Shown here one piece after another: positions 24,888-30,691 of a stretch of 64,000 nucleotides of DNA (positions are counted from its first letter, which is position 1; the number at the start of each line of letters is the position of its first letter). The translations under genes were made by a program, and so were the position numbers. The stretch spans positions 1,116,001 to 1,180,000 of the forward strand of contig NC_013523.1 of NCBI RefSeq assembly GCF_000024985.1, written 5' to 3'. The stretch comes from Sphaerobacter thermophilus DSM 20745 (lineage in GTDB: Bacteria; Chloroflexota; Chloroflexia; Thermomicrobiales; Thermomicrobiaceae). The notes beneath the pieces are model-generated. The model did not search any database and was not told the DNA's origin. It worked only from the letters and a program-made list of their open reading frames with translations.

Positions 24888-29327
<4,440 letters not shown>

Positions 29328-29350
29328 TCCTCCCCGCTCCCCGCACCCGC

Positions 29351-29388
29351 GCAACCCGCCCGTGTTTCCTTGACAGGGCGCGGGTTGC
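29351..29388 (+). terminator. Second hairpin after rpoC, overlapping the rpsL promoter
   Basis: GCAACCCGCCC pairs with GGGC(GC)GGGTTGC across a 14-base loop, with a two-base bulge. The TTGACA of the rpsL promoter lies in its loop and right arm, so rpoC termination and rpsL initiation share the same DNA. Confidence 0.45.
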
Positions 29389-29398
29389 TTGCTAGACT
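29370..29398 (+). promoter_or_regulatory. Promoter of the str operon (rpsL onward)
   Basis: TTGACA at 29370-29375, a 17-base spacer, TAGACT at 29393-29398. Transcription would start near 29405, giving a leader of about 136 bases that is strongly folded. Confidence 0.75.
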
Positions 29399-29406
29399 GT
29401 GTGCTT

Positions 29407-29524
29407 GTGGCCGTCCACGGACGGCCACTCCAGTGAGGAAGAGACTTCCTCAAGGACAGCCGACGCCGCAGCTGAGGAGCCCACCTCCTCAGAGCACGGC
29501 GACACGATGAGAACGGCTGTCTTG
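29407..29524 (+). promoter_or_regulatory. Folded rpsL leader with three tandem hairpins
   Basis: Three perfect inverted repeats follow one another: GTGGCCGTC/GACGGCCAC (29407-29428), TGAGGAAG/CTTCCTCA (29434-29452) and CTGAGGAG/CTCCTCAG (29472-29492). CAAGgACAGCCG (29451-29462) can also pair with CGGCTGTCTTG (29514-29524), closing a helix around the third hairpin and ending three bases before the AAGGGG ribosome site. The second and third stems share GAGGA/TCCTC and could swap partners. A regulatory leader is inferred. Confidence 0.55.
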
Positions 29525-29540
29525 AGAAGGGGTAACGGAC

Positions 29541-29966
29541 GTGCCGACGATCAACCAGTTGGTCCGAAAAGGGCGGAAGCGGGTCATCAAGAAGACCAAG
29601 GCGCCGGCGCTGCGCTACACCAACAACGCGCTGGGTCGGTATGCCGGTCGTCTGCGGCGCGGTAAGGGGTCGCCCCAGAAGCGTGGGGTGTGCACCCAGG
29701 TCCGCACCATGACTCCGAAGAAGCCCAACTCGGCGCTCCGCAAGATCGCCCGTGTGCGCCTCAGCAACGGTATGGAAGTGACGGCGTACATTCCGGGCGA
29801 GGGGCACAACCTCCAGGAGCACTCGACGGTGCTGATCCGGGGTGGTCGTGTGAAGGACCTGCCCGGGGTGCGGTACCACATCATTCGCGGTGCCCTGGAT
29901 GCCCGCGGTGTCGAAAACCGCAAGCAGGGGCGGTCGAAGTACGGAGCCAAAAGGCAGAAGTCCTAG
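29541..29966 (+). CDS. rpsL: 30S ribosomal protein S12
   Basis: A 141-residue S12, which lines the decoding centre. The conserved block [20 protein letters not shown] includes the Lys that is altered in streptomycin resistance elsewhere, and it is unaltered here; EGHNLQEHS and [14 protein letters not shown] follow. [12 protein letters not shown] stretch near residue 40 slightly lengthens the N-terminal part. GTG start at 29541 with AAGGGG upstream. First gene of the str operon. Confidence 0.97.
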
Positions 29967-30220
29967 GCAGCGGCGGAGCTGCGCTCCGGCGCGGTGAATC
30001 CGACGCTGCCGAGGTCTTCGGTTAGATCGTTCGGTACGAAAGCGGCCTCACGACGTGTAACGCGTGCTGACCGCTTTTTCGTGTGATCAGCAGCCGAAAA
30101 GCCTCTGGCGCCACGTGTGGTGCCGGGGTGGTGAGTGCTCCACGGGCCGCCGTTTGGCGAGTCCGGGCGATGGATGAGTGGCGCGCGCGCCACAACGGGT
30201 ACGCGGGAGGCGACAGACAG
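29967..30220 (+). other. rpsL-rpsG intergenic region
   Basis: A 254-base gap, unusually long inside a str operon. It contains a long GGCAGCG/CGCTGCC inverted repeat (about 29968-30011) and a hairpin with a T-run (30041-30079). An open frame in phase with rpsG crosses part of it but has no conserved content. Confidence 0.5.
30041..30079 (+). terminator. Possible attenuator between rpsL and rpsG
   Basis: AGCGG (30041-30045) pairs with CCGCT (30071-30075), with an inner CACG/CGTG stem, followed by TTTTT at 30075-30079. It is a modest stem with a real T-run, so partial termination between rpsL and rpsG is possible. Confidence 0.4.
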
Positions 30221-30691
30221 ATGCCGAGACGGGCCAAGGTCGTTCGACGGGAGATCCCCCCTGATCCGCGCTACGGTAGCGAGCTGGTGCAGCGCTTCAT
30301 CAATAAGGTGATGCAGCGCGGCAAGAAGGGCACGGCCGAGCGCATCGTCTACGACGCGCTGGACATCATCCAGCAGCGCACGGGGCGTGATCCCGTCGAG
30401 GTGTTCCAGCAGGCAATCCGCAATGCGACCCCCGTGCTCGAGGTCAAGCCGCGGCGCGTGGGTGGCGCGACCTACCAGGTCCCGATCCAGATTGAGCCTG
30501 CCCGGCGGCTATCGCTGGCGATCCGCTGGCTGCTGCAGTCGGCACGTGCTCGCACGGGGCGCTCGATGGCCGAGAAGTTGGCCGCCGAGTTGATGGACGC
30601 GGCGAACAACACCGGTGCCACCATCAAGCGGAGGGACGATACTCACCGCATGGCGGAGGCGAACCGAGCGTTCTCGCACTATCGTTGGTAA
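30221..30691 (+). CDS. rpsG: 30S ribosomal protein S7
   Basis: A 156-residue S7, the primary binder of the 3' major domain of 16S rRNA and the classical autoregulator of the str operon. Conserved [20 protein letters not shown] start, [12 protein letters not shown] and the end [17 protein letters not shown] are visible. The ATG at 30221 follows GGGAGG and gives the standard family length; the longer frame from 30083 is rejected. Confidence 0.97.

Follow-up and report, generated by a model that had tools for sequence, protein, structure and literature searches.

A conserved structured RNA leader before rpsL in Sphaerobacter thermophilus and part of its order

In Escherichia coli, ribosomal protein S7 represses the str operon by acting in the spacer between rpsL and rpsG (PMC10931766). 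Attenuators before rpsL have been described in Listeria, Xanthomonas, Pseudomonas and Rickettsia, with a structure that differs by lineage and with S7 as the suggested ligand (PMC2965389). The Pelagibacter rpsL motif, a structured RNA lying between rpoC and rpsL in 'Candidatus Pelagibacter ubique', has Pelagibacter and marine metagenomes as its only known sources (PMC2704228). Twenty new ribosomal leaders were reported by Eckert and Weinberg, none of them with rpsL (S12) or rpsG among the regulated genes (PMC7247131).

The leader considered here lies before rpsL of Sphaerobacter thermophilus DSM 20745, in a window (the whole stretch of DNA that was analysed) of 64,000 nucleotides; all positions are those of the window and all features are on the + strand. 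An earlier reading made from the sequence only had not recognised the leader as a described RNA family. That it belongs to none holds for Rfam 15, in which no family's gathering score was reached and no relevant match was obtained at E up to 10, and for the open-access literature, in which no description was found, a description elsewhere being possible.

Locus, promoter and leader structure

The genes in the window follow the order rpoC (ending at 29327), rpsL, rpsG, fusA and tuf. The rpsL gene (ribosomal protein S12; 29541-29966) begins with a GTG start codon, and S12 homologs were found in 51 of 61 related genomes; rpsG (ribosomal protein S7) occupies 30221-30691 and is followed by fusA and tuf. 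The promoter at 29370-29398 consists of TTGACA (29370-29375), a spacer of 17 nt and TAGACT (29393-29398). It agrees with the consensus at 10 of 12 positions, where 0.1 such matches were expected in shuffles, and the same promoter was also found in the rpsL leaders of relatives. Because of this strong match the mRNA leader should span about 29405 to 29540, transcription presumably starting at about 29405-29407. An inverted repeat (ACCCGCGCAACCCGC / GCGCGGGTTGC region) was seen at 29345-29388, 3' of rpoC, where it overlaps the rpsL promoter at the -35 box; it is possibly the rpoC terminator.

The folding energy of 29407-29523 was -78.2 kcal/mol, against -63.4 +/- 4.6 kcal/mol for dinucleotide shuffles (z -3.2), and 0 of 200 shuffles folded as well. 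The leader is a genuine structured RNA, as the sequence-only reading had proposed, and the three perfect hairpins that it had listed are present as P1, P2 and P5. P1, the 5'-terminal mRNA hairpin (29407-29428; TTGTGGCCGTC..GGACGGCCAC), has 9-10 bp. P2 (29434-29452) has 8 bp, a 3-nt loop and a conserved GUGAGG/CCUCAC core, and the apical hairpin P5 (29472-29492; CTGAGGAG CCCAC CTCCTCAG) has 8 bp and a 5-nt loop and is variable in length and sequence. The helix said to close just before the ribosome site was also found (GACAGCCG/CGGCTGTC, 29455-29462 paired with 29514-29521). It lies within P3, whose 5' strand is at 29453-29462 (AGGACAGCCG) and whose 3' strand, at 29514-29523 (CGGCTGTCTT), ends beside the ribosome-binding site. 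The Shine-Dalgarno region (29524-29532; GAGAAGGGG) adjoins this 3' end, and its 5' part is predicted to be mostly open once P3 forms.

The hairpins had been described as lying back to back in tandem, and this part of the description did not stand for P5. The closing helix P3 is connected to P5 by a 5-bp helix that had been overlooked, P4 (CGCCG at 29464-29468 with CGGCG at 29497-29501), through an internal loop of CAG (29469-29471) and AGCA (29493-29496; the proposed protein contact), conserved on both sides. Since P4 bridges the closing helix and P5, P5 is nested within the closing helix and is no free tandem hairpin. The unpaired 3' strand linking P4 and P3, J4/3 (29502-29513), was variable in the alignment. 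The putative functional core is the P3-P4-P5 arm with its near-invariant asymmetric internal loop CAG/AGCA, not the three hairpins.

Regions upstream of rpsL were read in 48 loci of related genomes, and the same core was found in about half of them. In an alignment made from sequence only (A1) the structure was 89.8% paired, against 32-44% when it was slid. A second alignment (A2) was fitted to a model and is hence biased towards the structure; its slid controls were 30-42% paired, against 89% for the true register. Covariation in related genomes, the check suggested with the sequence-only reading, was seen in A2 as two-sided changes at 14 of 20 pairs (33 cells), and 0 of 500 shuffles reached any of five measures. 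By helix, two-sided changes were found at 9 of 11 pairs in P3 (helix columns 2-13/107-117), at 2 of 4 modelled pairs in P4 (97.9% of cells paired) and at 3 of 5 pairs in P5 (100% of cells paired). A held-out model (R3), built from eight leaders of family f3 only, recovered the window copy and six other copies of family f1. Its sole match on the window's 4-Mb genome was the rpsL leader, at an E-value (3.2e-5) that is rough, as are all those of R3, owing to short calibration. The covarying conserved RNA structure expected of a ribosomal leader was thus found in the A1, A2 and R3 tests.

The CAG side of the loop was invariant in 24 of 24 aligned copies and the AGCA side in all aligned copies except L046 (AACA), while P3 and P5 vary freely around this constant loop. 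In L026 the loop was kept though the flanking pairs were flipped, and a model built without this leader recovered it at E 2.3e-5. L028, examined by eye, also kept the loop with flipped flanking pairs and gave no model match. The GAGG/CCUC of P2 was invariant across 13 leaders, and P2 was substituted or lengthened in some genera.

P1 is a module separate from the core. Its spacing was scored by script in the 41 leaders in which a promoter was found, the nearest suitable GTG at 4-12 nt being taken, and P1 opened exactly 8 nt past the -10 hexamer in 40 of the 41, drawn from five families; the fixed spacing was also found in families without the core. For L015, the sole exception, the script had used another promoter, and 8 nt is obtained again if the TATAGT box is read. 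The opening triplet was GTG, or GCG in one leader; 97% of cells in P1 were paired, with two-sided changes at two pairs and many G-U variants. As P1 is fixed at 8 nt from the -10 box, the mRNA should start at P1. Stem-loops at the 5' terminus can protect mRNA 5' ends, and structured 5' ends commonly stabilise mRNA; because it should occupy the first nucleotides of the mRNA, P1 most likely serves such 5'-end protection. The hairpin was absent at two other promoters of the genome with TTGTG in the same place (L176, L178) and at three other TTGAC promoters of the window. A hairpin also stands just 3' of the -10 box in the rpsL mRNA region of E. coli, a likeness of analogy only. Two of the f1 genera that lack the core (L033-L036, L038, L041-L045) had a longer P1 palindrome, which reached the -10 box through a further 7 bp or so on its upstream side and formed a stem of 15-17 bp.

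Distribution of the core and a second RNA in the rpsL-rpsG spacer

With model R1 and a confidence cut-off of E below 1e-6, 24 confident matches were obtained among 158 class genomes, one per genome and falling in two families of one order. All (24/24) lay directly before rpsL, the consistent position upstream of ribosomal protein genes expected of a ribosomal leader, and no confident match outside the same order was found among 301 genomes drawn across the phylum. Two weak model matches (L077, L079) were rejected, no ribosomal gene being present there. No recognisable core was seen in families f2, f4 and f5, in three f1 genera and in a few f3 members, so the core is not essential in the order. 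Other rpsL leaders of the class (L183-L185, L187, L190, L191) were observed to share another motif, TCTAAGGCGNAG..CTNCGACCAGA with close variants among them; the T-rich sequence after it ends in TTTTGTCT or the like, and the whole is attenuator-like by eye.

A search of 84,980 named genomes/species with the exact core pattern matched 91 stretches. Among the titled matches listed, those directly before rpsL were named only as Thermomicrobia/Thermomicrobiales, Thermomicrobiaceae, Sphaerobacteraceae, Sphaerobacter, Chloroflexia or Chloroflexi. The group L165-L175 was left out of this titled taxonomic listing; two of them, L168 and L169, are also before rpsL, and their cores are the same as in L029 and L021. 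The core of Sphaerobacter sp. Bu17 matches L003. L094 was not counted, as its rpsL starts about 2.7 kb beyond the pattern match, and L086, a pattern match away from rpsL, sits in a coding frame and was rejected. The remaining pattern matches had no rpsL adjoining the match. A plasmid search with the leader DNA gave no match.

A second conserved RNA was found in the rpsL-rpsG spacer at 30015-30088, an AGCGG..CCGCTTTTTCGTGTG stem with an internal loop. Model R2 matched this spacer in 41 genomes of the order. Every one of the 24 genomes with the leader core was among them, as were members of several families that lack it, so that the spacer RNA is the more widespread of the two in the order; when 201 genomes were drawn across the phylum, the window genome was the only one to score. 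The outer stem of the element hardly varies and shows little covariation, so the element may be either a stem of attenuator type or a site for a protein. Its place is that of the S7 site of E. coli, but no resemblance in sequence to E. coli was noticed.

Proposed function of the leader

The mRNA of the str operon (rpsL-rpsG-fusA-tuf...) probably begins with a ribosomal-protein leader that acts on translation and is confined to Sphaerobacter and part of its order, a reading to which a probability of about 0.64 is given. A leader of ribosomal-protein type had been raised by the sequence-only reading, and covariation, the strict rpsL context and the helix abutting the Shine-Dalgarno sequence argue well for one. 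The simplest mechanism would be feedback at the level of translation. A ribosomal protein encoded in the operon and present in excess over rRNA would bind the CAG/AGCA loop and keep the P3-P4-P5 arm in place against the Shine-Dalgarno sequence; 30S loading would thereby be blocked on rpsL and, through coupling, on downstream genes. A ligand site is usually marked by a loop that hardly varies while the helices on both sides of it do, and CAG/AGCA, being just such a loop, was counted as support for one. A scan of 29300-30300 with a terminator consensus gave no + strand terminator, and the feature that defines rpsL attenuators, an intrinsic terminator with a U-run before the start codon, was absent there; for a leader without a terminator, translation would be the natural control step.

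By analogy with the S7 repression of the str operon in E. coli, S7 is the first candidate ligand and S12 the second, at odds of about 45% for S7, about 30% for S12 and about 25% for another protein. When mimicry of rRNA, such as of the S7 site, was looked for by eye in an Rfam alignment of the 16S rRNA of the window genome, the resemblances to the CAG/AGCA loop were short and unconvincing. Two further points count against the main reading: some relatives lack a recognisable core, and in E. coli the site of S7 action is the rpsL-rpsG spacer, where these genomes have a separate conserved element. Should S7 bind that element, the leader may serve a different protein. A fuller scheme, in which the leader core is an S12 site and the spacer element an S7 site, giving two independent conserved RNA sensors plus a promoter-locked 5'-terminal hairpin, is doubtful; to our knowledge, S12 has no described autoregulatory leader.

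The structure might instead be constitutive, bind no protein ligand and serve ribosome standby or the stability or processing of the mRNA. The common stabilising effect of structured 5' ends and the fixed promoter distance of P1, kept even in genomes without the core, are in its favour; however, stability requires no invariant CAG/AGCA loop between freely changing helices, and such a role for the whole is unlikely. It is less probable still that the leader senses an input other than a ribosomal protein, whether a small molecule, a processing enzyme or an elongation factor. EF-G and EF-Tu are encoded in the operon too, but for the known conserved leaders before rpsL and other ribosomal operons the ligands are taken to be ribosomal proteins (PMC7247131, PMC10931766).

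In many f3 leaders the 3' strand of P3 (CUCCU) is complementary to the Shine-Dalgarno sequence (AGGAG), and when opened it could pair with and mask that sequence, in which case a ligand stabilising P3 would activate expression. Sphaerobacter and its f1 relatives, however, lack this complementarity, and a masking switch is very improbable as the account of the leader.

The resemblance of P2 and P5 in GAGGA/TCCTC, from which partner exchange had been suggested, does exist in the window. The alternative pairing itself was not borne out: the swapped helices reached -9.0/-9.5 kcal/mol against -12.6/-13.1 kcal/mol for the native ones. The swap is formable only in two near-identical Sphaerobacter genomes, where the native pairing is stronger; it is not conserved, 12 other genomes reaching at most -6.6 and mostly -5 to +1 kcal/mol. 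Transcription attenuation, or a switch by P2/P5 strand exchange, can therefore be set aside as scarcely credible, although the complementarity is present and attenuators before rpsL are described in other bacteria (PMC2965389), because no + strand terminator was found in the leader, which had been thought a possible attenuator, and the exchanged helices, weaker than the native ones, do not occur beyond the two closest genomes.

Comparison with known systems

A translational ribosomal-protein leader at this locus would share with the leaders of Eckert and Weinberg a lineage-limited, covarying structure before ribosomal protein genes (PMC7247131). With the S7 repressor site of E. coli it shares the operon, and S7 is the likeliest ligand by this analogy (PMC10931766). 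The E. coli site, however, lies between rpsL and rpsG rather than before rpsL, and it contains none of the core words of the Sphaerobacter leader.

Like the Pelagibacter rpsL motif, the leader is conserved, limited to a lineage and thought to control ribosomal protein genes (PMC2704228). The Pelagibacter motif has a bulged P1 leading into a three-stem junction with a conserved J2-3 (PMC2704228), whereas the covarying core of Sphaerobacter is an unbranched arm with an internal loop. The rpsL attenuators likewise occupy the 5' leader of the same operon, but those described end in an intrinsic terminator (PMC2965389), and none was found in the Sphaerobacter leader. With a three-stem junction in the one and terminators in the others, neither system fits the Sphaerobacter leader.

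On this comparison the Sphaerobacter rpsL leader would be new, within the known class of ribosomal leaders. It adds a well-supported str operon leader for a lineage with none in Rfam or the open-access literature, and its compact near-invariant loop makes the question of the ligand directly testable. It also bears on the question raised for the rpsL attenuators of whether very different rpsL leaders all bind S7 (PMC2965389).
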